IMG/VR virus record: IMGVR_UViG_3300030333_002814
Location: 1 to 24,186 of that record
Source of the DNA: a virus
DNA length: 24,186 bases
Direction: 5' to 3' (one strand)
The notes under the pieces are model-generated. The model searched no databases. It had not been told where the DNA came from and saw only the letters and a program-made list of their open reading frames with translations. How positions within the stretch are numbered: the stretch's first letter is position 1; each line of letters begins with the position of its first letter. Positions 682 to 24,003 of the stretch are shown piece after piece. The position numbers and the translations under genes were made by a program.

Positions 682-840
682 ATGGGGCAATACACACCAC
701 CGACAGAAGATTGCGCTAATTGTGGCGCTCGCTTCTCATGGTTGTTTGTTGATAGTATAGCAGAAGGCGACATTTACGAATGCGAAAAGTGTAATAATAT
801 TATTCTAAAAGTATTTGAAGTGGTTAGCGATGATAATTGA
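682..840 (+). CDS. Small zinc ribbon protein (52 aa)
   Basis: A 52-residue protein with two CxxC pairs, C11/C14 and C34/C37, spaced by 19 residues. This is the classic four-cysteine zinc ribbon layout. It starts at ATG 682 with GTGAT just upstream, and its stop codon lies 11 bases inside the DNA polymerase gene (ATG 830), so translation of the two is probably coupled. Zinc ribbons of this size usually mediate contact with DNA, RNA or a protein partner. No enzymatic part is present. It is the first of a series of small CxxC proteins, each lying directly before an enzyme gene in this operon. The cysteine pattern and tight packing make it a credible gene. The function is unknown. Confidence 0.7.
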   Translation: MGQYTPPTEDCANCGARFSWLFVDSIAEGDIYECEKCNNIILKVFEVVSDDN

Positions 841-3055
841 AAGCAAAGGCAGAACTGTTATCGTTAGAGGTCGTGATAATGCTGGTAAAAGATACGAGAA
901 AAGTATTACGGGCCATTGGCCGTATTGTTTTGTTAGGACTGAGGATGCCGAGTATGCCGCCGAAGGAGTAGCCGTTAAACATGGCTACACCGGACTTTAC
1001 GGCGAAGAACTATCTAAGATTTCTTGCACTTCTGATTATGATGTAAAACAGATAGCAAAGCGAGAACAGACATGGGAAGGCAATTTACCCTATGTTAATC
1101 AAGTATTGGCTGACTACATCAACGAGGGCAACCCACGCTTTGAGAACTACAAACACCGCACATGGTATCTTGATGCCGAGTGGTCGCCCTCAACAGGGAA
1201 ACTACGATGTATTGTAGTCTATGATAACTTTAGCGAAAAAGAATATGTGTGGTTTGTGCATCACAACATAGAAGAAGAAAAAGACGGTAAAGGCGTGCCG
1301 TTCAAGACCTTCGGTGATTTTGAATATGAAACTCCCGCTATGGCTTTCCCTACTGAGAAATCTATGCTTATCCATTTCTTGCGACATATCAAGGCTTGCG
1401 ACCCCGACATCATCACCGGATGGTATGTGGTCGGCGCAGATATTAAGACAATCATAGAGAGATGTCGTGCTAATCATCTGTCCGAGTATTCTCTATCTCC
1501 TATGCGTAAGATACGATACGAATACAAAGATTGGTCGCAGCCTATTGTTGGTCGTAATTGTATAGATTTGATGATAGCCGTTGCTAAACTATGGGAGTTG
1601 AAGAATGGAAAACTACCGTCATACAAACTCGATGATGTAGCCTACGAAATATTAGGGGAAAAGAAAGTCGAGTTAGAACACGGACACGATACATGGTTTG
1701 AAGATAAGCCGCTGTATATCCACTACTGCCGTCAAGATGTTCGACTGTTGCCCAAATTGGATGAGGCCGTGAATGCTCTCGACTACTATACATCGCTACA
1801 ACATATTGTTCAATGCGATATTCGTTCAACACCGTTTATCACACAGATGTTTACACAATTAGTCTTAACAGACCCCGACTTCGACCGAAGAATCCCATCG
1901 AAACCACAGTTCGATAAGGTGGATTACGAGGGCGCAGACATCTTAGATGTGAATGCTGGTGTGTATGATAATGTGGGTATCTTAGATATTAGGGCCATGT
2001 ATCACAGCAACGCAGATAAATACAATATTTCATGGGACACCTTAGATGAAAACGGACAGGACTGCGGGAACGGAACTAAGTTCCGGCGGGGAGAGAAGGG
2101 ATTGTTGGTTCGGCAGATGGATAAAATGACTGAACTTAGAAATACCTTTAAATTAAAAATGATTATGAGCGAGGGTAAGCAAAGAGCAAAATGGGATTGT
2201 ATGCAGTTCGCCGCTAAGACTCTCGTTGCTTCTATGTATGGAGTGGCGGGAGATGCTAAGTATGGAATGTATCACCCCGAAATAGCCGCCGCTATCACCC
2301 ACACATCACGAAACACATTGGGAGAGTTGATGATTGAAGCACAGCGCGTTGGCTTTGAGGTTATCTATGGGCATACCGACTCGGTATTTTGCACTATACC
2401 TTCACCCGAAAAGGGCATGGAACTTTTACCGCAAATAAACGAGAGAATGTCGCCTATCGTGGTTGAGTTTGAGAAATGGTGTAGTCGTCTTATCATGGTT
2501 GCTAAGAATCGCTACACAGGTAGGGTTGCATGGTCTGATGGAGAATACCATGAGCCGAATATTTATGTTAAAGGTATTGAGATGAAGCAGTCAAGGATGC
2601 CGCCCGTGATGAAAGAGGCCATGAATACTACCATATCGGGCATACTAAATGACGAATCCGAAATCCGTATCACAGCGCGAAATTTATCTCTAATAGACAG
2701 TATATTAGGGGGTAAAATAGACCCGTTAGAATTGTGTATGAAAGGAAAGATAGAACGCGACCTTTCTAAGTATAAAGTTCTCTCCGGTTCGTCTGCTGCG
2801 GCGGCATGGGCCAACGAGTTCTTAGGTAAAGGGTATCGAGGCGGCTCATTCTTCTTAGTTAGTATTAACGAAGACGGTAAATACATTGGCTTTGACGAAC
2901 CTTCTGAAATTGAAGGGATAACTAACATTGGGGCAAAAGTAATGACGGATAGATTTATTATAAAGAAAATATTGCCTTACTATGAATTGGCGGGTTGGGA
3001 TGCTCAACCACTTTTAAATGCACAAAATGGATTGGATATGATACAATGGATATGA
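830..3055 (+). CDS. polB: Family B DNA polymerase with 3'-5' exonuclease
   Basis: Replicative DNA polymerase of family B, 741 residues from ATG 830, a start that overlaps the previous stop codon. A TTG at 815 is possible but lies deeper in the previous gene. Exonuclease motifs are visible: Exo I YLDAEWS (D115, E117), Exo II around D204 (GWYVVGADIK, where families usually show an Asn and Phe-Asp) and Exo III YCRQD (Y299, D303). Polymerase motif A is LDIRAMYHSN (D386) where YPS is usual. Motif B is KTLVASMYG (K463, Y470), with Ala replacing the common Asn. Motif C is YGHTDS (D517) instead of YGDTDS. A thumb-type KGIEMKQSRMPP motif follows. Both essential metal-binding Asp residues (386, 517) and the exonuclease carboxylates are kept, so an active proofreading enzyme is expected. 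The extreme C terminus QNGLDMIQWI resembles a clamp-binding peptide. The fold assignment is secure and the host lineage is inferred. Confidence 0.96.
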   Translation: MIIESKGRTVIVRGRDNAGKRYEKSITGHWPYCFVRTEDAEYAAEGVAVKHGYTGLYGEELSKISCTSDYDVKQIAKREQTWEGNLPYVNQVLADYINEGNPRFENYKHRTWYLDAEWSPSTGKLRCIVVYDNFSEKEYVWFVHHNIEEEKDGKGVPFKTFGDFEYETPAMAFPTEKSMLIHFLRHIKACDPDIITGWYVVGADIKTIIERCRANHLSEYSLSPMRKIRYEYKDWSQPIVGRNCIDLMIAVAKLWELKNGKLPSYKLDDVAYEILGEKKVELEHGHDTWFEDKPLYIHYCRQDVRLLPKLDEAVNALDYYTSLQHIVQCDIRSTPFITQMFTQLVLTDPDFDRRIPSKPQFDKVDYEGADILDVNAGVYDNVGILDIRAMYHSNADKYNISWDTLDENGQDCGNGTKFRRGEKGLLVRQMDKMTELRNTFKLKMIMSEGKQRAKWDCMQFAAKTLVASMYGVAGDAKYGMYHPEIAAAITHTSRNTLGELMIEAQRVGFEVIYGHTDSVFCTIPSPEKGMELLPQINERMSPIVVEFEKWCSRLIMVAKNRYTGRVAWSDGEYHEPNIYVKGIEMKQSRMPPVMKEAMNTTISGILNDESEIRITARNLSLIDSILGGKIDPLELCMKGKIERDLSKYKVLSGSSAAAAWANEFLGKGYRGGSFFLVSINEDGKYIGFDEPSEIEGITNIGAKVMTDRFIIKKILPYYELAGWDAQPLLNAQNGLDMIQWI

Positions 3056-3333
3056 AAAAGATAAGTAAAAAATGTAAAGCGGGCATGAGGGTGCATGGCG
3101 GTCATGTTTGGGATATTAGAAAGGCATGGTATAACCACAGTATAACAGCCCCTATGAGATGGAAAGGGGAGAACTCTAATTCTTCAAGAATAGTAAGCGA
3201 AGTATTGCTTGAATGTATTGACTGTAAAGAATCATATTGGGTTAGGTATGAGTCTAAACCAATTGAGGACATGGTTAAGGATGAACATTTTTCCTATGAG
3301 GATGAAGATGTAAAAAATGAAGTGTATTCATAG
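3052..3333 (+). CDS. Small Cys/His protein, possible zinc-binding (93 aa)
   Basis: I do not recognise this protein. I chose ATG 3052 because it overlaps the polymerase stop codon as ATGA, the typical coupling pattern here; ATG 3046 in the same frame adds two residues and cannot be excluded. It has a basic N terminus (MKKISKKCK), a C8...H15xxH18 group followed by Trp, and a CIDC pair at 55-58, so a single zinc site is possible. The C terminus is acidic (YEDEDVKNE). Its end overlaps the next gene by 17 bases. It sits between DNA polymerase and a PAPS-reductase-like enzyme, as another small metal-site protein preceding an enzyme. Confidence 0.65.
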   Translation: MKKISKKCKAGMRVHGGHVWDIRKAWYNHSITAPMRWKGENSNSSRIVSEVLLECIDCKESYWVRYESKPIEDMVKDEHFSYEDEDVKNEVYS

Positions 3334-4138
3334 TGATTTTATGGTTGATTATATCGTTATGTATTCCGGCGGCCTTACTTCTTTTGAGGCCGCAAGACTT
3401 ACGATAGAAAAATACGGTAAAAGTAATATTAGGCTATGGTTTGCGGACACATTAACCGAAGATGAAGACCTTTACCGATTCAATAAAGATGTCGAACAAT
3501 ATCTCGGTGTTGAAATAGAGGTTCTATCAGAAGGAGAAAGTGTTTGGGATATTTTTTTCAAGCATAGATTTTTGGGCAATACGAGAGCCGACCCGTGTAG
3601 CAAATTTTTGAAACGGAATAGTATAAAGAAAAAACTAAAAGAAGAATACCCCGACCCAAAAGATGCAATAGTAGTATTAGGGATGGATGATATAGAGGAC
3701 TGTAATAGGTGGGAACGGGCGGCTAAAGCGCAAGAGCCATACGAAACCTATTTTCCCTTGATTGAGCAAGGGCCTATACTAAAAAGTGAAATAATAAACT
3801 TTTTAGAGGGTGTTGGGATAGATGCGCCCCGCCTATATAGTATGGGATTTACTCATAATAATTGCGGCGGCTTTTGTGTAAAAGCGGGCTTAGGGCAGTT
3901 CGCGCATCTATACGAAACAATGCCCGAAAGATACCTTTACCATGAAAATAAAGAGCAAGAATTTAGAGACTTTATAGAAAAAGATGTATCTATTTTGAGA
4001 GATAGAAGGGGTGGTAAGACTTCACCGCTAACTATGAAAGACTTGAGGCGAAGAATAGAAGATGGGGAGAAGTTCGATTATGACGCGGGTTGGACTTGTA
4101 TGTGTTTTGTTGATACTAACGATTTTTCGTGGTTATAG
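3317..4138 (+). CDS. PAPS reductase-like PP-loop ATPase family protein
   Basis: The N terminus carries a PP-loop, YSGGLTS (residues 16-22), of the adenine nucleotide alpha-hydrolase superfamily. It is followed by a segment typical of PAPS reductase/sulfotransferase-like proteins (WFADTLTEDEDLYRF, RADPCSKFLK and GMDDIEDCNRWERA). Such enzymes adenylate a substrate or bind an adenylated sulfur donor. Five cysteines could hold a metal site or carry sulfur: C94, C183 and C187 (CGGFC), and C261 and C263 (CMC). No separate reductase tail or thioredoxin motif is seen. Relatives are common in tailed phages with unknown role. Nucleic acid thiolation or base modification is a fair inference but unproven. 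The start may be ATG 3317 (used here, overlapping the previous gene) or ATG 3341, which puts the PP-loop closer to the N terminus as is usual. The superfamily call is firm, the reaction is not. Confidence 0.85.
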   Translation: MKCIHSDFMVDYIVMYSGGLTSFEAARLTIEKYGKSNIRLWFADTLTEDEDLYRFNKDVEQYLGVEIEVLSEGESVWDIFFKHRFLGNTRADPCSKFLKRNSIKKKLKEEYPDPKDAIVVLGMDDIEDCNRWERAAKAQEPYETYFPLIEQGPILKSEIINFLEGVGIDAPRLYSMGFTHNNCGGFCVKAGLGQFAHLYETMPERYLYHENKEQEFRDFIEKDVSILRDRRGGKTSPLTMKDLRRRIEDGEKFDYDAGWTCMCFVDTNDFSWL

Positions 4139-4173: not shown

Positions 4174-4464
4174 ATGGCTAAGAAAGTGAATGCCGAAGAC
4201 TTTGAGATATTCGTTAGAGAAGTGGCGACAGCCCTTACTATGATAGGCGCGGATTTAGGGAAAATGCAAACGCTATTGTATGCAAGTCTAAATCAGCAAG
4301 GATTCATTAATGAGATGAAGTGCCCTCATTGTAAAGAAGAATTGATGATACCTACCTTGCCGGACATAGAGCAAAGCGATAAATGCCCTGCTTGCGGAGA
4401 GAATATTCACGAAGGCACACAGACAACCTTTGAAACATGGGATTCGGGCGGCGAAGAAGAATGA
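4174..4464 (+). CDS. Zinc ribbon protein with N-terminal helical part (96 aa)
   Basis: It starts at ATG 4174 behind a strong GAGGAG ribosome binding site with a 5-base spacer. The first 45 residues look helical and amphipathic (EDFEIFVREVATALTMIG). A zinc ribbon follows: CPHC at 50-53 and CPAC at 71-74. The acidic tail ends WDSGGEEE. A 35-base gap precedes it, one of the few gaps in this operon; it contains TTTATAT at 4144-4150, which may be a weak internal promoter. The stop codon overlaps the start of the nuclease gene as ATGA, so the two are translationally coupled. The function is unknown. A DNA- or protein-binding partner of the downstream nuclease is inferred only from linkage. Confidence 0.75.
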   Translation: MAKKVNAEDFEIFVREVATALTMIGADLGKMQTLLYASLNQQGFINEMKCPHCKEELMIPTLPDIEQSDKCPACGENIHEGTQTTFETWDSGGEEE

Positions 4465-5312
4465 GAGCGACCGAAGAACAGTCGGCTTGTTCGACTTACA
4501 ATCCGATAGATGCCGACATAATAAGAATTAGTAAGTCCTCTTTGATGGGCTACATGAAGTGTCCGCGACAGTTCTTTTGGGGCTATGTCGCTGATATACC
4601 GCGTGCGCCACCTACTGAGGAGATGATACGCGGAACACACATTCACACAGTCATGGAGGCCGGAATACTTCAAGGACCGGACATGATAATGCCCGCTGCG
4701 ATTGAGCAGGGGGTCGAAGAAGACGAGGGCGTTGATTCTATGAATCTTCTTCTGCATCAGATAGCCCACGATATAGGCGGCTTTGATGTAGTCGAGGCCG
4801 AAGTCAAGCACGAAGTCTATGAGGAGTTCAACGGCCATGAGATTGTATGGGTCGGGTTGATTGACGGCGTGCTAAGACACCCCGAAACAGGCGACCTAAT
4901 CTTAGTTGAGTTGAAGACAGGTAATATGGGTGTGGCTAAGTTAGGCCGCACACGAAAAGAGTTAGTTTATTACACACGCCTTCTTCGCAAACTCGGCTAT
5001 GATAATGTGAGTCATTTCTTATACATATCACCCGATTACGAGATACCCGAAGACGGACAGGATAAACTCTTACTTGAAGGGCAAAAGAGAGGTAAGACCA
5101 TGTGGTTAGGGCCGGAACGCGGATTCGCCCTGCTTGAACCTATGTTGGAACGCTCGTATAATGCCTTTGAAGAATCTTTATACAACACAATAGATTCTTT
5201 AACAACCCACCAATGGCCGATGAAGTGGAACGACTATTTCTGTCCTATGTGGTGTGATTTTTCATTGAATTGTGAAGCAGAACTTAACGGAGTAAATGGG
5301 TGGGATGTATGA
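4461..5312 (+). CDS. Cas4/RecB-like PD-(D/E)XK nuclease with Fe-S cluster
   Basis: A 283-residue nuclease of the RecB/AddB/Cas4 group. The start ATG 4461 overlaps the upstream stop as ATGA. Visible parts are an N-terminal SKSSLMGYMKCPRQFFWGYV segment with the first cluster cysteine (C34), RGTHIH with H62, and the catalytic core IDGVL (D135) and VELKTG (E150, K152). A following helix has YYTRLLRKLGY in place of the QxxxY motif. A C-terminal cysteine group CPMWC...C (C261, C265, C271) together with C34 should hold a 4Fe-4S cluster. Such enzymes trim or cut single-stranded DNA ends in recombination and replication. No cas1 or cas2 gene or repeat array is nearby, so a viral recombination or replication role is more likely than CRISPR adaptation. 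It is coupled to the next zinc ribbon gene by an ATGA overlap. The family assignment is confident. Confidence 0.9.
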   Translation: MRATEEQSACSTYNPIDADIIRISKSSLMGYMKCPRQFFWGYVADIPRAPPTEEMIRGTHIHTVMEAGILQGPDMIMPAAIEQGVEEDEGVDSMNLLLHQIAHDIGGFDVVEAEVKHEVYEEFNGHEIVWVGLIDGVLRHPETGDLILVELKTGNMGVAKLGRTRKELVYYTRLLRKLGYDNVSHFLYISPDYEIPEDGQDKLLLEGQKRGKTMWLGPERGFALLEPMLERSYNAFEESLYNTIDSLTTHQWPMKWNDYFCPMWCDFSLNCEAELNGVNGWDV

Positions 5313-5488
5313 GTAGGGCCGGAGAAGCGAGAGATTTTATCGCAAAAATAGTTTGCGCCGCCTGTGGGTCTGATGACTTATGGGAAGGTTCAGAAGAAGT
5401 GTGGCGCGTCAATGGGCAAGAGGGTTCAGCACCGGAACGTGTTACCATTATTGCCTGTGAATGCGGGAGTCAGCAAGTCATCGGGTGA
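5309..5488 (+). CDS. Small zinc ribbon protein (59 aa)
   Basis: It starts at ATG 5309, overlapping the nuclease stop as ATGA; a GTG at 5300 would add three residues. Cysteine pairs are CAAC (C16, C19) and CEC (C50, C52), separated by 30 residues. The second pair is a compact CxC followed by Gly, which still fits a zinc ribbon. Between them lies a charged strand-rich part with two Trp residues. It ends 4 bases before the primase start, and its final codons (GGGTGA) provide the primase ribosome binding site. The function is unknown. The linkage suggests a partner of the nuclease or the primase. Confidence 0.72.
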   Translation: MSRAGEARDFIAKIVCAACGSDDLWEGSEEVWRVNGQEGSAPERVTIIACECGSQQVIG

Positions 5489-5492
5489 GCCT

Positions 5493-6500
5493 ATGATATT
5501 GTCTTTTCCGCGTGAAATCGGTTTGAGGCGCACGCCCTGTAATAACAAAGATGATTACGATAGTTATATCTCAAAAGTAAATGGTAAAGCATCCTGTTAT
5601 ACATCTCTCTATGCGTTTGAGAAATGCGATGATAGAATGTCTTGGAAAATGGATATTGAAAGCGTGGTTATGGATAGGGCGTGGTGGGATTTCGACACCA
5701 CCGAAGATACCACACTTGAAGATGTAAGGGCAGATGTTCTAACCTTACTATCCCGCCTTGAAGGCGATGTCCGAACTGTCTTTACAGGCAGGGGATTTCA
5801 TGTTCACCAATTTTTCGATACTCCGGTCAAAGGCACAGCAATAGCGAGGCACATTGACCGCTACCAAAGGCACGCCGCAAGAGGGCTAAAAACGCTTGAC
5901 GGCGTGGGCTTTCCGCAGAAACTTACACGCATACCGGACACCTATAATCCGAAGCGTGGTAGGTGGGCAGTCAATATAGATACAGTCGCTTTTAAGGCCG
6001 ACCCAAACTATGATATACCAACTCACCCCTCTAAAGAATTACAGCATCACGACCCATTTACGGGAGATGCACCCACTAATGGGTTCAACATAAGAAAATG
6101 GATTGCGGATAATCCCGTAACCGAAATAAGGCCCGAAGGGGTCTTACAGGCCGATATAGGCCACGCCGGACAGATACCAATACCACCGTGTATCGAGAAG
6201 GCAATAGAGGGAGATAATCCGAAGCACACAGCACGACTTGCGCTCGGTTATCATTTAGTGGAAAATCTTAGATGGTTTGCAGACCCAAAGTCGCTTACAT
6301 CTGAGCAACGAGAAAGTATTATTCAAGAAGCAATAAACTTTATCGAAAAACTAAATTGGCGGGATTTTAACCGTAGCATGACGAGAAGTCAGATTGAGTC
6401 CATCGTGGACCATGAGTTCTCGCCGTCATGTTCATGGTTGCAGACCCGCATAGGCTGCCCCGCTATCTGTTGGCGTGATGATGGAACAAGGAGAAATTAA
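5493..6500 (+). CDS. Primase: AEP catalytic domain fused to PriL-type Fe-S domain
   Basis: DNA primase, 335 residues from ATG 5493, which follows the ribosome binding site GGGTGA. A longer open frame reaching 5364 lies inside the previous gene and has no support. The catalytic archaeo-eukaryotic primase half shows motif I WWDFD (D66, D68), motif II TGRGFH (R100, H103) and motif III RIPDTYNPKRG (146-156). The usual third acidic residue just before motif III is not obvious, with D136 the nearest candidate. The C-terminal part (about 228-330) matches the primase large-subunit iron-sulfur domain: IPPC (C233), a KHTARLALGYHL helix, TRSQIESI, and SPSC...GCPAIC (C313, C322, C326). Archaeal cells normally split these functions into PriS and PriL, so here one chain combines RNA/DNA primer synthesis with the Fe-S domain needed for initiation. 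The call rests on strong motif agreement in both halves. Confidence 0.9.
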   Translation: MILSFPREIGLRRTPCNNKDDYDSYISKVNGKASCYTSLYAFEKCDDRMSWKMDIESVVMDRAWWDFDTTEDTTLEDVRADVLTLLSRLEGDVRTVFTGRGFHVHQFFDTPVKGTAIARHIDRYQRHAARGLKTLDGVGFPQKLTRIPDTYNPKRGRWAVNIDTVAFKADPNYDIPTHPSKELQHHDPFTGDAPTNGFNIRKWIADNPVTEIRPEGVLQADIGHAGQIPIPPCIEKAIEGDNPKHTARLALGYHLVENLRWFADPKSLTSEQRESIIQEAINFIEKLNWRDFNRSMTRSQIESIVDHEFSPSCSWLQTRIGCPAICWRDDGTRRN

Positions 6501-6501
6501 T

Positions 6502-6660
6502 ATGATGTCTTTACGCGAAATTAAAATAGAAGAAACAGCGGTTTGCGTTATGTGCAACCACAAATGGACTACTGAAAATGAAGTCGAGAAGTATTGTGGT
6601 AAATGTAAATCGCACATCGTAATCATACAGGATGAGGTCTATTACTCGCAGGGTTGGTAA
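6502..6660 (+). CDS. Small zinc ribbon protein (52 aa)
   Basis: It starts at ATG 6502 (or the adjacent ATG 6505), one base after the primase stop, with a clear AAGGAG ribosome binding site inside the end of the primase gene. Cysteines CVMC (C15, C18) and CGKC (C32, C35) lie 14 residues apart, a compact zinc ribbon. The C-terminal strand (SHIVIIQDEVYY) ends in an aromatic QGW tail. It immediately precedes the ERCC4 nuclease gene. Its role is unknown; this is the fifth small metal-site protein in this arm. Confidence 0.75.
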   Translation: MMSLREIKIEETAVCVMCNHKWTTENEVEKYCGKCKSHIVIIQDEVYYSQGW

Positions 6661-6695
6661 TACTCTTTAAGAAGGCTTCTCGTTGTCGTAGTTTT

Positions 6696-7400
6696 ATGCT
6701 ATTGATAGACGACCGCGAGAATGATAAGGTCATCAATAAATTACTCATGCGTATGGGTAAAGATGAGGTAAAAGTATGTCGGATGAAAGCGTCTGACTAT
6801 ACTATGGGAACATGGGGCATCGAGGCCAAAGAGATTAACGACCTGTATAGGTCTATCATGGGCTTCGGTCGCACACGAACTATCGTGGACCAATTGCATG
6901 ACCTGCAAGAGTCATGCGAGCATCCTTTCCTCGTTGTCTATGGAACTGAATTGAAGCCATACATTCCGGGCCAAAGACCCAACGCGAAGTTAATATCTGT
7001 CGAAATGGCCCGCATGAAAAAAGTAATCAAGCAGTTTAAGGCTGTATTCTATCAAAGATTTCCTAAAATTAAATACATGGAACTCACCACTATGGATGAG
7101 TTCGTGGAATGGCTCGTAGTCAATCATACACAGCAGGGCATAGCAAAAAGCCGCCTTGCATACGAACAACAGCAAGTTATAAAAAATGCTGATTTAGATT
7201 CAAGAATCCAACTTCTATCTTCTATCGAGGGTGTATCTGTTAATCAAGCCGAAGCCCTGTTAGAAAAGTTTGGTAGCATACCAAATATACTTAGAGGTAA
7301 AAGAACTCAAAAAGAATTGATGGATATAACAGGTATCAATCGCAGAAAAGCAAAAGCCATTTTATCTTTAAGAGAAAAATTAGTAGGGTTTGAATCTTGA
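6696..7400 (+). CDS. ERCC4 (XPF/Mus81-type) nuclease with HhH domain
   Basis: A structure-specific endonuclease of the XPF/Hef family, 234 residues. ATG 6696 begins right at the nuclease fold (MLLIDDREND). An upstream TTG at 6654 would overlap the previous gene. The DxRE motif is D5/R7/E8. The usual GDYxx...ERKxxxD signature appears as SDY (D34) and EAK...D (E43, K45, D49), so the Arg of ERK is replaced by Ala. GRTRTIVDQLHDL follows, as in the family. Residues 168-228 form a tandem helix-hairpin-helix domain (SSIEGVSVNQAEALLEKFG and ITGINRRKAKAIL) that binds branched or single-stranded DNA. There is no helicase domain, so it resembles the short archaeal XPF form. It probably resolves flaps or forks during viral replication. 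It is the last gene of the + strand arm and overlaps the convergent hub gene by 21 bases. Confidence 0.93.
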   Translation: MLLIDDRENDKVINKLLMRMGKDEVKVCRMKASDYTMGTWGIEAKEINDLYRSIMGFGRTRTIVDQLHDLQESCEHPFLVVYGTELKPYIPGQRPNAKLISVEMARMKKVIKQFKAVFYQRFPKIKYMELTTMDEFVEWLVVNHTQQGIAKSRLAYEQQQVIKNADLDSRIQLLSSIEGVSVNQAEALLEKFGSIPNILRGKRTQKELMDITGINRRKAKAILSLREKLVGFES

Positions 7401-10400
7401 TACGCCAGACCTTGTGTGCGCCGATGCTCTCTCTAAATTAACGCTTAAGTTATTTACAACTACACTTGAAGTGTTTGCGTCATCATCTCCTGTTCCGGCC
7501 TTACGAGTTACAGTTACAACAATAGTTCTGCCCGCAACACTACAACCCTTTAGAGATGTTGTCGGAATTAAACTTATTGGTTTGTTTTCTAACCCTGTTC
7601 CTATTTTAGTTGTGTGAGATACCGTATCGCCTGTTTCTTGTATTAACGCTGTAGTATATAATACCGCAGTAGTGTTACCGCCGATTTGAGGACTATGTGT
7701 TACATTTGCTTGTATGTGCATTCTTTCATTTAAAACATCCATTGGTATAGTAAAAGTAGTCTGTATAGTAGTTTCTTGCGAATCTGCCGCAACATCATTA
7801 CCCATCAGACCTTTACCACCAAAAATATAACCATCTGCTGATACTGCGGCTGTTCCACTAACCGCAGATATGTCCTCATTCATCCCTTCTATACCCCTTG
7901 AAGAATACGCAACAACAGAAGATGTTTCTTTTTGGCCTAAAACGGAGAGTGTCCCATCACCCGCCATAATATCTGCACCCAAAGACATACGATGTCTTTT
8001 TGGAAATCTGCCGTCAGATGGTGAAGGGTTAAACGGATGGTTTCCGTCTTCCTGTTGGTCGTTTTGGTTACTGTTGTCTGGGTCAAAATCACTATCGGGG
8101 TTATTTTCTGCTGGTGTTGTTTGTAAGCCGTTATCTTGATAAGAACCGCTACCACCACCTATAACAGAACCCATTGTATTAGAATCGGTTTTAGGGAAAA
8201 GATAAGTCATAAGACCCTGCCGCTCAAGGCCTTCATCCCGCTCTAATTCTAAATTAACATTTTCTGTCGAGCCCGCAGATACTTGATAATTAACATTTTT
8301 TATGCTTAATGTTTCTGCATTCATTTCTAAACCGGCATCTGTATAAGTTACAAAAGTTGCCGGAACATAAGAAAAATCGCGGCATATATGCACGCGAGGC
8401 GCATACCAAGTAACTCTTTCGTCTTTCCAAGCAGCACCCAAACTTAAATTACTACTACCCATTTCACTATAAACCCTTTTACCCAAAGGAAAAATAGTAT
8501 CGGTGTTTGTAGCGACACGCTTTAAAATATTACTACTACTCGGGTCGCCGCATCTGTGCCGCAACAATGCGCGGCAGTATTCTGCGTTAAATGATATTAC
8601 TATTTTAGCACCTGCTGGCGCACCATAATTTGTGGGTATTTCTATTTCGTAAAATCCACTATGTTTTACATCAGTTCCTTTTACATTATCACTTGCAGAA
8701 GTTGAGTTGTAAGTATCACTTGCTATTCTTCTCATAGCCGTGCCGCCATCTCCGCTACCAAAATGATAATCACCAAGATAAATTGAAAATTGGGCATCAT
8801 CAATTGTTGCGCCGCTATCCTGTGTTGATTTTAAATCAACCCATATTCTCATCGGTTCTCCTGTTAAATCACTAACAAACGGTGTTGAATTAGGTATATG
8901 AACTATTTGAACCGCATGAGAAATTGAGTTGCTACCATACCAATAGTAATTGTCCGCCCACGCTACATCACCCGAAGATGTTGTATTTTTTGATTGCCCG
9001 TATCTTGAGTTAAGGGGGTCTATATCTGTATTCATATTACCGTTAAGAGCATTTACCATGCCCGGAAATAAAGCGCCGCCTGTTCCGAGAACAGTCCAAT
9101 TACATACGCGCATATCTGCTTTTGAGGCCGTGTTATCAGCATTACCATTAAGGGCAATATATGGGTCTGCTATGTAGCCGTATCTGCCTGTTTCTATCAT
9201 TTTATGCTGTGTGCCGCTTTCAAGAATAGGCTCTATGGCTAATTTTAATGAATTATTTTTACGGCTATTATATTCTTGTTCGGCTATTTTAGTTGCTTCT
9301 TCGGTGCTGGCTACATCGGGATGTTCAATAATTTTCCATCGTGTGCTATCTCCTAAAGATGCAGAAGGATAATCAACAAAGTTTTTATGGTTATTGTAAT
9401 AAACTCTTATGTTTTGTATTTGCGCCGATAAATTAGCCGTAAGATTTGTAACACGGGTGTTGTTTCTATTGAAAGTTATCCCACTATTATATTTTGGCCT
9501 TAACTCTATTCTATTATCCCTACCCATTCTGTAAGTAAATGTAGTATAGTTGCTTTCCCCTTGACTTGCTTTTTGTTGTATAGCATTTAAAGTTGCGCCA
9601 AGAGTTTTACCCCTACTATCTGTTATTGAACCGTAGTAATCGTTACTGCTTGTATCGTTGTAAGTAGTCATGTGATTTGTAATTGGAACATTGTTAATGT
9701 CGAATATACAATTAACAGTTGCAGACGGTAGCCATGTGTCCATAATAGCAGCGTTCCAAAGCATACGCATTTTGTCGCTGGTCCAATAAGTTCCACTCGA
9801 TTTATTTTTGTAAAATCCATCAACATGAAGTAAAAGACGCAATAAATATGATGATGCGACCGTAGCATGAACTTCATAGGCTATGGGGTCATTAGTTCCT
9901 GTTCCATAAATTCCATGTGTTCCAAACGAAGTCCAAGAAGAAGAACCCGATTGAAACCTATTCCAAACTTCTTTTTCTGTTTCAGTAATTGATGCGGCGA
10001 TACTTTCTAAATATGTATCTATAGGAACTTCAAAAACCATAGCCAATTGGGGTAATATATCATAGGTGTCGCCACTCGACCATGTAACGGTTGTTCCATC
10101 TGTTGCCGTTCTTTCAATAGTAAGTTTTGTATCAGTATTCGCCCCGCTCGTATCACCTACGGCAAGAATATTATGGTAAGTTAAATCACCACCTCCATTT
10201 GGAGTTCTTTGTAAAACCATTCCCTTTTTAATTCCGCCAGCCGCGTGGTCTATTCCGCTTGTAGTAATTACATACACATTAACGCCTTCATAAGTTGTTG
10301 CGGATATAGTTCCGCTTATTCCGGTTGTATTGTTAAACTCGGTATCTAATTTACCATCCCACACAAAATATCTATCGTTATTATTACCGCCTTTATTATC

Positions 10401-13400
10401 GCGTTCATAAACAGTTACGAGTCGCCCTACGCCACTCTCCGCAAAGTTTTGTGTATTATCTAAAGGTAATCCTATACTACCGTTGATAAACCCATTAGTT
10501 GCTGTAGTTACATCAGATATTAAATGGTTTTGGTTTGGGTGTTGTCTAACTACCGTTCCGGTTGTTCCGTAAGATGCAATAGCCTCTCTCCAATAATTAT
10601 CAATAAGAGCAGGGAATCCTTCGTTTTCAACTATATAGTCGGTAAGGTCAGTTCTGCCCGCGCCAATTTGTCCGGTCTTACCATCATTTACAAAAGTATT
10701 TAGATTGAAAAATTTAGCACAATCAATTACTATTAAAGACCCTGCTTTGTTTTCCCAATCGTGAAGATAATCAAGTCTATGTGTTTCGCTACCACCAGCC
10801 GGATAAGCAATTACTCCACCATCATATCCTGTAGCGGCGGAAAAATCAGTCGTTGTAGTCATTTGATTACTAACATTACTTGTTATTTCGTGTATTCCAT
10901 CATGGGCTGTGCTACCTACTAAATGAACATAAGTGCCGTAGCCGCTTGAATCGCTTACCGCTATTCTTAATTTACCTCCGTTATCAGTAAGAGTAGCCGT
11001 GCTTGGGTTTGTGTAGTCCGGCGGTTTTGAAAGTGCGCTACCGGTTAAGGGGTCGGCGGTAGCATCCATATTCCATACTAAAAAGTCCTCTCCGTTTTGT
11101 AGTGTGCCGAACTTATCTAAATTACCGTCAGCATCTGTTTGGTCTGCAAAGTAAAGGTCAAAATTATAATTTTCTTCTATTGGGTATTGCAGACCAAATG
11201 ATGTTTTTCTTTCTGAGCCATCTGCGTTTGCCTCGCCGTTGTTTCTCATGTCGGACCAAAGAAGCCAAATGTGTTTATAATCATTATCTATATCTTGCAC
11301 TCGGAAATAGTATTGACGAGCACTTGTGTTATTATCGGTTGGATATGTTCCTTTGATATATTTAACGCCGGTCAAATAATAATCAGAAGATACCTGTTGC
11401 TTGCCTTGATAAATAAACTTTTCAAGATAAAAAGAGTTGGAGGAATCCCATCTATCAACATTGTTTCCACTACCGAAGGGTGGGTCCGAAGCCCATATTT
11501 CGACTATGCCGGAGTTTGGAAAATTCTCATAGGTCTTTTGATGTATTTTTATACTTTTAGTAGTAGGTGAAAGACTTACACCACCAACTGCGGTAGGTTT
11601 GCTGTAAATGCTATTGGTTACGCCCGCAGGTAAAGTATTATTAACATAATCATATTTAATTTTGCCGAAATGATATTGGAACCACAAAGACATAGGTAAA
11701 TCTCTCATCCAAGTTGCATGAACTGCTCGGTTTTGTATTGTTTGCGCTGTGTCTGATATAAAAACACCCTCAACATAGCCTGCGTCTTTACTCCAAGAAA
11801 ACCTTGAAGTTCCGTTTAAAAAAGAATCCGAAGCATATAACCCGTGTGATTCGGAACCACTATACGGGGTGCTTGTTTGAACAACCCAAAAATTACCAGC
11901 AGATGTAACTAAATTACTACCACCAACTGATGTGTAATCTTTTATTTTTCTTACTTGTGTTACTCTATGCCTAACACGATAAGCAGAATTTAAATCACCC
12001 GATGCCGCATCATTTCTTCTATTAATGTAAAAATAATCTCCTTCTTTTAGGCCGGGATTAGCAGTAAAAAACACATTCATATAGTGTGGTCCAGAACCAA
12101 CAGTATGTGCTGTTGATGGGCTACTTTGGTAATTATTATATAGATTTTCCCATGCTTGTTTCCACGCATTGTAAAATAATGTCCCACTTGGTCCATTATC
12201 CCATTTTCCATCATCGTTTTCTGCGCCACTAAAACCGGTATATTTTCCAATGTAAAATATTTTACTTGTTTCATCAAAGTTGCTATATGCAAGGTCGCTC
12301 GCATTAAAGGTTATTTCACCTGTTGTTCCATCAACTGCTGTAGCACTAATAGCACTTGTAGTAGCATAATTATCTGCTGTAATATGAATATTAGCAAAAT
12401 CACCTACTACTTTACCATGTGAAGCAACAGCAGGTATGGCTATAACCGTAGTAGCCGAACCTGTTGGTTCAGTAAAACCAAGAATACCAAAGTCGCCATA
12501 ATCCCTCTCAACATTATTTGGCCCGAAGTCATCTTCATTGTTATACATCTGTATAGCGTGCCCAGAACCTAATTGAGTTCTTTGGTCTGCTGATTCTTTA
12601 TGAGAATTTTCTGTATCAAAACCCATATTATTATCGAGTAATTTTAATTTACCAGCGCCAAGATTCATAATATCTCTAAAGCCCTGTGCGCCATAGGCCC
12701 AATAATCTGTAGGCTCTCCGTTACTGTCTTTTTCTTTTTGTCCTATATCCCAAAGAGGAAGTTGGCTGTCTAATTTTTCTATGGAATCTTTAGCAGACAA
12801 TGTTATAATTCTATCACGCCATTTTTGCTGTATGTTAAATGAATCAACAAAACCGCGCCAGACCGGCCTATCAATTCTTGCCGAACTATCAGCAAAAACA
12901 AGCAACGACCAATCAAGCGGAGTTGTGCTTACAAATAAACTTCTAAGATTTAATAAATAATCAGAAGACGAAGCACCTCTTACGCCGCCGGACAATTCAG
13001 CATCGTCTGCTATTTCAACTACACATGAAGATATACCATTTACGGGTTGTCTGATATTTAATTTTTGTATTTGTGTTTCCCTACTGTGTTCTAACCTATC
13101 TAATTCATCAGTAAGGTATCTCACAAGCCCTACTCTATCAAGCATAAGATAAGATACCCAACCTTCGTCATCAGTATTAGTAGCGTTATTTACTGTTATT
13201 TGATAACCATATAGATTTGATGCGGTAGTTGCACTATCAGAAGTTCCGTCAAGGTTTCCGTCAGTCATAGGTTGATTAGTTGAGTGTGAAGTTCCATTAA
13301 CATATACATCAAAAGTATTAGCGGTATAATCAAAAACAAAATCAACATCAATCCAAGCATTATCGTTATTATAAGATTGCACAAAAGCGCCGGAATTGTA

Positions 13401-14360
13401 AAGCAAACCTTCTTCGTCATAAGAAATTGCTGATAAATCTAAGTTGTAGTATATAGCGGGGGTTCCTGTGTAACCACCATCACTAAGAATACCTGCCTCG
13501 CTTGTTGGAAAACCTATTTCAAATAAAACTCTTGTATCATCCCATGCAGCATTTTCTGCTTTCATAGTTCTTACGGCTATTCTTGCCGTAAAAACATCTC
13601 CGTCAAGGCGTGTATTAAGAGGACCGTCATAAATTATAGTAGGGGTTGTAGCAGAATCGCTTTCGGATTTTCTCGATGACTGCACACATAAAAACGGCAT
13701 ACCCGATGGCGACTTAACTTCTGCATAAATTGAACGGGGAAAATTAGAAGTGGTGCTTTGTTGTAGTTGTTCGCCGGTCCAAACACCAGCAAGATGTGCC
13801 CGTTGCACGAAATCTCCTGTTGTTGAAATTAAACCTGCCTCTTTATTTCCAAAATTAGTATTTGTGTAATCTTTCATGTTAGCATGACCGAAGGTAGCGT
13901 CATTATCTCCTGTGGGCACGATGTAAGAAGCATCGCTATTATGTCCGTTGATAAACCGTTGGTAAAAATCGCTACCATAAGTTGAATCGTTATCGAACTT
14001 ATATCGGTTTGCTATATGCCCATCGGGATATTGCAGTTGGGCTCTCCCCGCCCAATTATAACTATCAAGCCTAATACTATCAAACGATAACCACTCAAAA
14101 ATACCATCATTTTTTAATTTAAGATTACTACTTGATGCGACTTGCTTTGCTGAGTCGTTTTCTCTTTCTTCTATTGAAAATCTAAAACGCGGATTAAGAA
14201 ATGCCTCCCCATTCATCGGATTTCCAAAGTGGCTTTTCGTAGCGGTAAATGTTACATCGCTTGGTTGGTCGAGAGCATCTGCTATGGCTCTCGCCCCGTT
14301 GAAATCATCGTAATAGCCCGCAAGCCATATCTGATATTTCTTCTCAACGGTTCTTACCAT
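7380..14360 (-). CDS. Giant tail hub / receptor-binding protein (2326 aa)
   Basis: It starts at ATG 14360 with the ribosome binding site GGGTGAT, 9 bases after the tape measure gene. Position after the tape measure protein and beta-rich, Asn/Ser/Thr/Gly-rich composition mark it as a tail tip protein. Roughly: residues 210-410 look like a LamG/concanavalin-type jelly roll (FDVYVNGTSHS). Residues 420-540 resemble a baseplate-hub module (VVEIADDAEL, PVWRGFVDSF). Residues 1540-1740 resemble the second half of a hub, with an EATKIAEQEYNSRKNNSLKL helix and a strand ending GRYGYIADPYI. About 1000 beta-rich residues lie between the two halves. An Asp/Asn-rich linker (about 2080-2110, possibly calcium binding) leads to a C-terminal beta-sandwich (2130-2326), a plausible host-receptor binding end. 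No lysozyme or peptidase motif was recognised. The general role is well supported by context; domain limits are approximate. Confidence 0.8.
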   Translation of the reverse strand: MVRTVEKKYQIWLAGYYDDFNGARAIADALDQPSDVTFTATKSHFGNPMNGEAFLNPRFRFSIEERENDSAKQVASSSNLKLKNDGIFEWLSFDSIRLDSYNWAGRAQLQYPDGHIANRYKFDNDSTYGSDFYQRFINGHNSDASYIVPTGDNDATFGHANMKDYTNTNFGNKEAGLISTTGDFVQRAHLAGVWTGEQLQQSTTSNFPRSIYAEVKSPSGMPFLCVQSSRKSESDSATTPTIIYDGPLNTRLDGDVFTARIAVRTMKAENAAWDDTRVLFEIGFPTSEAGILSDGGYTGTPAIYYNLDLSAISYDEEGLLYNSGAFVQSYNNDNAWIDVDFVFDYTANTFDVYVNGTSHSTNQPMTDGNLDGTSDSATTASNLYGYQITVNNATNTDDEGWVSYLMLDRVGLVRYLTDELDRLEHSRETQIQKLNIRQPVNGISSCVVEIADDAELSGGVRGASSSDYLLNLRSLFVSTTPLDWSLLVFADSSARIDRPVWRGFVDSFNIQQKWRDRIITLSAKDSIEKLDSQLPLWDIGQKEKDSNGEPTDYWAYGAQGFRDIMNLGAGKLKLLDNNMGFDTENSHKESADQRTQLGSGHAIQMYNNEDDFGPNNVERDYGDFGILGFTEPTGSATTVIAIPAVASHGKVVGDFANIHITADNYATTSAISATAVDGTTGEITFNASDLAYSNFDETSKIFYIGKYTGFSGAENDDGKWDNGPSGTLFYNAWKQAWENLYNNYQSSPSTAHTVGSGPHYMNVFFTANPGLKEGDYFYINRRNDAASGDLNSAYRVRHRVTQVRKIKDYTSVGGSNLVTSAGNFWVVQTSTPYSGSESHGLYASDSFLNGTSRFSWSKDAGYVEGVFISDTAQTIQNRAVHATWMRDLPMSLWFQYHFGKIKYDYVNNTLPAGVTNSIYSKPTAVGGVSLSPTTKSIKIHQKTYENFPNSGIVEIWASDPPFGSGNNVDRWDSSNSFYLEKFIYQGKQQVSSDYYLTGVKYIKGTYPTDNNTSARQYYFRVQDIDNDYKHIWLLWSDMRNNGEANADGSERKTSFGLQYPIEENYNFDLYFADQTDADGNLDKFGTLQNGEDFLVWNMDATADPLTGSALSKPPDYTNPSTATLTDNGGKLRIAVSDSSGYGTYVHLVGSTAHDGIHEITSNVSNQMTTTTDFSAATGYDGGVIAYPAGGSETHRLDYLHDWENKAGSLIVIDCAKFFNLNTFVNDGKTGQIGAGRTDLTDYIVENEGFPALIDNYWREAIASYGTTGTVVRQHPNQNHLISDVTTATNGFINGSIGLPLDNTQNFAESGVGRLVTVYERDNKGGNNNDRYFVWDGKLDTEFNNTTGISGTISATTYEGVNVYVITTSGIDHAAGGIKKGMVLQRTPNGGGDLTYHNILAVGDTSGANTDTKLTIERTATDGTTVTWSSGDTYDILPQLAMVFEVPIDTYLESIAASITETEKEVWNRFQSGSSSWTSFGTHGIYGTGTNDPIAYEVHATVASSYLLRLLLHVDGFYKNKSSGTYWTSDKMRMLWNAAIMDTWLPSATVNCIFDINNVPITNHMTTYNDTSSNDYYGSITDSRGKTLGATLNAIQQKASQGESNYTTFTYRMGRDNRIELRPKYNSGITFNRNNTRVTNLTANLSAQIQNIRVYYNNHKNFVDYPSASLGDSTRWKIIEHPDVASTEEATKIAEQEYNSRKNNSLKLAIEPILESGTQHKMIETGRYGYIADPYIALNGNADNTASKADMRVCNWTVLGTGGALFPGMVNALNGNMNTDIDPLNSRYGQSKNTTSSGDVAWADNYYWYGSNSISHAVQIVHIPNSTPFVSDLTGEPMRIWVDLKSTQDSGATIDDAQFSIYLGDYHFGSGDGGTAMRRIASDTYNSTSASDNVKGTDVKHSGFYEIEIPTNYGAPAGAKIVISFNAEYCRALLRHRCGDPSSSNILKRVATNTDTIFPLGKRVYSEMGSSNLSLGAAWKDERVTWYAPRVHICRDFSYVPATFVTYTDAGLEMNAETLSIKNVNYQVSAGSTENVNLELERDEGLERQGLMTYLFPKTDSNTMGSVIGGGSGSYQDNGLQTTPAENNPDSDFDPDNSNQNDQQEDGNHPFNPSPSDGRFPKRHRMSLGADIMAGDGTLSVLGQKETSSVVAYSSRGIEGMNEDISAVSGTAAVSADGYIFGGKGLMGNDVAADSQETTIQTTFTIPMDVLNERMHIQANVTHSPQIGGNTTAVLYTTALIQETGDTVSHTTKIGTGLENKPISLIPTTSLKGCSVAGRTIVVTVTRKAGTGDDDANTSSVVVNNLSVNLERASAHTRSGVSRFKPY

Positions 14361-23439: not shown

Positions 23440-24003
23440 TCATCGCCAGCGTGGGCCTTCAAACCATGCTACGAGGCTCGTTCTTGAGCCCGAAGTAATA
23501 GCAGACACGCCATGTTCTAAATATGACGGAAAGCAGATAATAGACCCGCGCTTTATCAAACTATCGGGGTCTGGATTCTGTGTGTGTGCAAACGATAATA
23601 AACCACCTTCGTAATCATCGGGGTCGGTCAGTTGCACGACAATACTCAACTTTCTGTGCTTGCCGTCTTGCCTGTTCCAATCTATATCGTGGTGCATTCC
23701 GTAGTGGTGTCCTACATCTGCATACTCGGTAAATTGTAGCGGTGGTAAATCTGTAAGGGTAAGGTTAAATTGTTTGTTAGCATCCATAGCAACCTTCATT
23801 AAAAAGTCGTGCATCTCGGAGTATGGACCAACATTAGGAAGCCACCTAATGTCTGTTTTGCGGTGAGCATCAGACTCACCTTCACCTGTTCTGAATGTTT
23901 TTGCCTCTTGTTTTGGTGCTTGTCGGCCTAATTCAATCCAACGCTCGCAATCTTCTTCACTAAGGACTCCTTCGTATAGTAACCAATTTGGGTGTTCCAT
24001 CAT
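23440..24003 (-). CDS. 2OG-Fe(II) oxygenase, prolyl hydroxylase-like
   Basis: A 187-residue dioxygenase of the prolyl-4-hydroxylase/PKHD type that uses iron and 2-oxoglutarate. The iron site YxxHxD is Y101, H104, D106 (in YGMHHDIDWN). The distal ligand is H164 (SYLEHGV), and R174 ten residues later binds 2-oxoglutarate. The core strands LSIVVQLTDPDDYEGGLLSF and the RGSIICFPS segment are typical. It starts at ATG 24003 (or 24000), without a ribosome binding site but 20 bases after a TATA box, so it is probably leaderless. The substrate is unknown. Such genes are frequent in marine viruses near structural genes; hydroxylation of a virion or host protein is an inference. The family call is strong. 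Confidence 0.92.
   Translation of the reverse strand: MMEHPNWLLYEGVLSEEDCERWIELGRQAPKQEAKTFRTGEGESDAHRKTDIRWLPNVGPYSEMHDFLMKVAMDANKQFNLTLTDLPPLQFTEYADVGHHYGMHHDIDWNRQDGKHRKLSIVVQLTDPDDYEGGLLSFAHTQNPDPDSLIKRGSIICFPSYLEHGVSAITSGSRTSLVAWFEGPRWR

Follow-up and report, generated by a model that had tools for sequence, protein, structure and literature searches.

A gene in the window (the whole 24,186-nucleotide stretch of viral DNA that was analysed) encodes a 335-amino-acid putative primase in which an AEP catalytic domain of PriS type is followed by a helical domain that resembles the C-terminal domain of PriL (PriL-CTD) and PriX. The first-pass annotation had proposed that these two domains are joined in one short chain, and the present analysis supports it. 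The one-chain PriS-PriL architecture is already known. The new point is a ligand swap at the predicted metal site of the C-terminal domain; no description of it in this family was found in the literature searched. Most likely its product serves as replicative primase for a tailed dsDNA virus, whose host is probably a marine archaeon.

Table 1. Features of the primase gene and of its surroundings, with positions in the window
Feature	Position	Strand	Remarks
PolB, family B DNA polymerase, same gene run	815..3055	+	PF00136 8e-29, phrog_262 9e-84
Cas4/Dna2-like PD-(D/E)XK nuclease, upstream of primase	4437..5312	+	PF12705 3.4e-9
One-chain AEP/PriL-CTD primase gene (335 aa)	5493..6500	+	ATG start
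N-terminal AEP (PriS-type) catalytic domain, residues 1-206	5493..6110	+	AlphaFold, Foldseek
Motif I, D66-F67-D68, within WWDFD (64-68)	5688..5696	+	D66, D68 invariant
Motif II, TGRGFH (98-103), H103	5784..5801	+	H103 invariant
Motif III aspartate D136 (LDGVG), third acidic residue	5898..5900	+	invariant
Motif IV, K143...R146xPxTxN152xxR155, nucleotide-binding Arg and Asn	5919..5957	+	invariant; spacing as in PolpTN2
Linker, residues 207-228	6111..6176	+	pLDDT 54 at 211-220
PriL-CTD/PriX-like helical domain, residues 229-330	6177..6482	+	PF04104, model pLDDT, PriX fold matches
Predicted metal ligand C233	6189..6191	+	invariant
Predicted metal ligand C313	6429..6431	+	in relatives exchanged for Cys/His after C326
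Predicted metal ligand C322	6456..6458	+	every row has a Cys 4-7 residues N-terminal of C326
Predicted metal ligand C326 (CW)	6468..6470	+	invariant
XPF/Hef-like ERCC4-HHH nuclease, downstream of primase	6654..7400	+	PF02732 4.3e-9, NF010337 7e-17

The gene and its protein family

The ATG at position 5493 is taken as the start of the gene because aligned relatives begin at the same N-terminal sequence, FPR[EQ]xGL. A longer open reading frame with a GTG start at 5364 was rejected, as the N-termini of homologues match the ATG. Relatives were collected from IMG/VR; one scan found 96, and from two further profile scans the best 80 of 218 and the best 80 of 198 matches were kept. The alignment contains 124 distinct full-length sequences in 125 rows, the window's own sequence being entered twice. 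These 124 proteins are 325 to 357 amino acids long, with identity down to 40%. Residues D66, D68, H103, D136, K143, R146, T150, N152 and R155 are invariant in all 125 rows, and so are C233, H245, R248, C326 and W327 in the C-terminal half. Another cysteine, C16 (window 5538-5540), lies near the N-terminus of the AEP domain and is present in 113 of the 125 rows; it was discarded as an additional metal ligand because the other 12 rows of this larger alignment have a different residue.

Sequence searches with the 335-amino-acid protein gave no relevant match in the PDB or in phage and plasmid collections, and the family profile had no match in the PDB. No relatives were found by direct search of bacterial and archaeal genome contigs (GTDB collection), and a profile search with the C-terminal domain returned chance matches only.

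The catalytic domain

Judged from its motifs and from the structural model, the N-terminal half is a complete AEP domain with motifs I-IV present. The open reading frame and the motifs DFD, GRGFH and RIP...K are as the first-pass annotation had described them, with key residues invariant across the 125 rows; residues 144-157 read LTRIPDTYNPKRGR. The annotation had also held that the third catalytic acidic residue is out of place. This does not stand, as the invariant D136 is ten residues N-terminal of R146, just before motif IV, which is where the third acidic residue of AEPs (PriS) usually sits. The six-residue spacing of R146 and N152 is that of Arg231 and Asn237 in motif IV of the plasmid primase PolpTN2, where Arg231 is essential (PMC5862659).

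The AlphaFold model of the whole protein has a mean pLDDT of 89.5, with most of the AEP domain at 89-97. Foldseek matches of this domain in the PDB include the CRISPR-associated Prim-Pol CAPP (E=1.6e-5), archaeal PriS (4e-3), the polymerase domains of LigD (PolDom) and S-2L PrimPol, all with a probability of ~1; PrimPols and end-joining polymerases, and not PriS, lead this list. By sequence, two relatives match the PriS model TIGR00335 (best E=0.0014).

The C-terminal domain

The gap between the AEP domain and the C-terminal domain is only ~20 residues, and the N-terminal domain of PriL is therefore absent. The linker that fills this gap is short and probably flexible. The last ~105 residues appear to form a PriL-CTD/PriX-like helical domain, for which sequence and model give moderate, not conclusive, fold support. 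The PriL model PF04104 matches residues 217-323 at E=0.0044, with 16.8 bits vs a curated cut-off of 22.4; at E<=1 it matches 4 of 57 relatives. The PriL-family matches all fall short of the curated cut-offs, and most relatives display none. In the AlphaFold model, helices start at or adjoining C233 and C313, an arrangement similar to that of PriL-CTD. Residues 218-335 were also modelled on their own (pLDDT 86.5, pTM 0.81), and this model was compared with 350,542 PDB chains. The top three matches were all PriX, with non-significant scores (E 1.6-2.7, TM 0.38-0.45), and PriX is related in structure to the Fe-S domain of PriL (PMC5700102); a C-terminal fold unlike PriL-CTD, which would have spoken against the first-pass annotation, is not what this ranking suggests.

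That PriX and not PriL-CTD comes first, albeit with weak scores, and that PriCT, PriX and PriL Fe-S_N are related to each other (PMC5862659) raise the question of descent. The domain might be a PriCT/PriX-type helical domain that gained its metal site independently and does not descend from PriL. This origin is considered unlikely, given that the sequence matches are to the PriL models PF04104 and NF002589 and take in the PPC motif.

The predicted metal site and the ligand swap

Cysteines 233, 313, 322 and 326 are found where the first-pass annotation placed them; C233 and C326 never vary, and C313 provides the fourth ligand in 67 of the 124 sequences. In the other 57, the fourth ligand is a Cys or His just past C326, in the form CWxC (30 sequences), CWxH (26) or CWC (1). 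Examples can be seen in the C-terminal ~20 residues of relatives L007, L019, L035, L039 and L131-L142. The two arrangements are mutually exclusive, with both present in 0/124 sequences and neither present in 0/124. As such exact compensation between C313 and Cys/His is best explained by one four-ligand metal site, the alignment supports a single site formed by the four conserved ligands. In a tree built from 54 rows after dereplication, six changes are needed to account for the exchange, and at least two are forced by well-supported branches. Whether the fourth ligand has moved repeatedly between C313 and the position past C326, so that close relatives would carry Cys4 and Cys3His sites, is a proposal with about an even chance of being right.

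The centre at this site is most likely Fe-S, though the sequences by themselves fit Zn as well. Exchange between Cys and His is frequent where zinc is bound, and the Fe-S assignment is therefore uncertain. Zinc sites tolerate both such exchange and ligand moves well; here the His of CWxH is the fourth ligand in 26 of 124 sequences and the site shifts between two positions. Fe-S clusters with Cys3His ligation exist too, and the position and context of the ligands fit the cluster ligands of PriL. A one-chain primase as proposed, with zinc (Cys4 or Cys3His) as a purely structural staple in place of 4Fe-4S, would agree with the finding that PriX performs the priming role of PriL-CTD without a cluster (PMC5700102). 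It agrees less well with the fusion primase PolpTN2, which was light brown when purified, consistent with Fe-S (PMC3973330), and zinc is considered a rather doubtful alternative to the preferred Fe-S centre.

Gene neighbourhood and host

The gene order in the window is PolB, a PAPS-reductase-like gene, a Zn ribbon, the Cas4-like nuclease, the primase and the XPF/Hef-like nuclease. PolB is ~2.4 kb upstream of the primase in the same gene run, and the tail genes are on the opposite strand. The PAPS-reductase-like gene (3317-4138) lies between PolB and the nuclease; a close relative, G001, has no such open reading frame between PolB and the Zn ribbon. Two other loci on the minus strand are a 2OG-Fe(II) oxygenase (23440-24003, PF13640 1.6e-14) amid structural genes, and a 2326-amino-acid protein (7380-14360) with no significant PHROG family match.

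The one-chain primase is present in 16 of 16 related genomes of 60-75 kb. No other PriS or PriL was detected in these 16 genomes with PF01896 and PF04104; the same models miss the one-chain primase itself, and a second, equally divergent primase may therefore escape detection. One 73.8-kb viral contig (G013) has two diverged primase copies, at 1972-2967 (L129) and 69395-70402 (L044), possibly from a mis-join.

Among annotated records, PolB best matches haloarchaeal tailed viruses (~24% identity), and an archaeal host is therefore likely. Some relatives share GroEL and RFC-like genes. A 68.5-kb relative carries, beyond the genes seen in the window, an RFC-like AAA protein, GroEL and a terminase; MCM is above cut-off in 1 of the 16 genomes. 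ICTV profiles record an archaeal-type primase in magroviruses, with no domain detail (PMC12999244, PMC10768690).

Proposed role

A replicative primase is the most likely role, given PolB in the same gene run and the lack of other detectable PriS/PriL in the 16 genomes. The fold matches of the AEP domain, led by CRISPR-associated Prim-Pol and LigD polymerase domains, and the Cas4-like and XPF-like nucleases on either side of the gene could also suit a PrimPol or end-joining type polymerase that serves repair or restart. Such a role is improbable for a gene that is kept in all 16 related genomes and shares a run with PolB; in addition, the hafunavirus homologues occupy a similar replication module and the PriL-type domain is linked to initiation.

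As a replicative primase, the protein would bind two metal ions through D66, D68 and D136, and H103, R146 and N152 would hold the elongation-site nucleotide. H245 and R248 of the C-terminal domain may hold the initiating nucleotide and the template, as PriL-CTD does in the cellular primase, with a [4Fe-4S] cluster or other metal stapling the domain. The primer would then be handed to the virus's own PolB, which is likely to extend it.

This is a small primase of archaeal/eukaryotic type with both catalytic and initiation-type domains, with 335 amino acids where hafunaviruses have ~412 and the record of pTN2 gives 945, and could serve as a convenient model for the cooperation of the two domains. 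The ligand swap offers natural variants for probing metal-centre function. If the fourth ligand does move repeatedly, and the sites carry 4Fe-4S clusters of differing redox potential, nature would supply a set of variants with which to test what the cluster does when the primer is made and handed over, a matter of dispute. The family also aids annotation of many marine viral proteins that general family libraries miss.

Comparison with known primases

The first-pass annotation stated that cells keep PriS and PriL as two subunits. This is too general, as DPANN archaea have single-chain PriS-PriL fusions (PMC7414124) and plasmid pTN2 of Thermococcus nautili encodes one, PolpTN2 (PMC3973330); for viruses and plasmids of archaea, too, the single-chain design is no novelty. 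The proteins of DPANN archaea and Nanoarchaeum equitans are likewise one-chain but are fused cellular subunits, and they are likened here by description only (PMC7414124, PMC3973330). Two database proteins are of similar size: A0A516M133 (BFVD/UniProt), a 332-amino-acid homologue that is 56% identical (TM 0.87), and A0A1S5Y2Y2 of an uncultured archaeal virus, with 327 amino acids and E=1e-8 but only 18% identity. The latter is labelled 'Archaeal/eukaryotic-type DNA primase large subunit', that is, after its PriL part alone.

PolpTN2, like the viral protein, has PriS-like and PriL-like domains and four cysteines in one chain, and its primase/polymerase activity has been demonstrated (PMC3973330). 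It differs in its length of 945 amino acids as annotated in its record, with PriCT-1, a PriL N-terminal domain and a winged helix, and in a Gln that replaces the motif II His (PMC5862659), which the viral primase retains as H103. PolpTN2 was rejected as a close homologue because there is no profile match. A chain of 335 amino acids also leaves no space for the additional domains of PolpTN2.

The closest known systems are the primases of haloarchaeal hafunaviruses, which form PHROG 9660 (HRTV-8 gp73, E=4.9e-199; also HRTV-27 gp62, UBF22755.1, and HRTV-11 gp63, UBF22320.1). The 335-amino-acid protein matches this family locally, over residues 4-98 (E=4e-5), and 16 of 57 relatives match it too (best E=7e-6); tblastn gave no link between the two groups, which are too diverged. 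Only in the profile-profile alignment is the match near full length (E=2.8e-6, probability 88%, 268 columns), and this alignment pairs C233, C313 and C322. Several hafunavirus primases are annotated with a PriS-type N-terminal and a PriL-type C-terminal region. They share with the viral primase the single chain, an AEP N-terminus, a PriL-type C-terminus and the same motif order, and most have a PC and three C-terminal cysteines. The HRTV-27 primase (L166, 3720-4961) has lost the three C-terminal cysteines that its hafunavirus relatives retain. The genes are likewise near PolB and a Cas4-like nuclease. Hafunavirus primases are longer (405-420 amino acids), have SGHKGxH as motif II where the viral primase has TGRGFH, and display no counterpart of C16.
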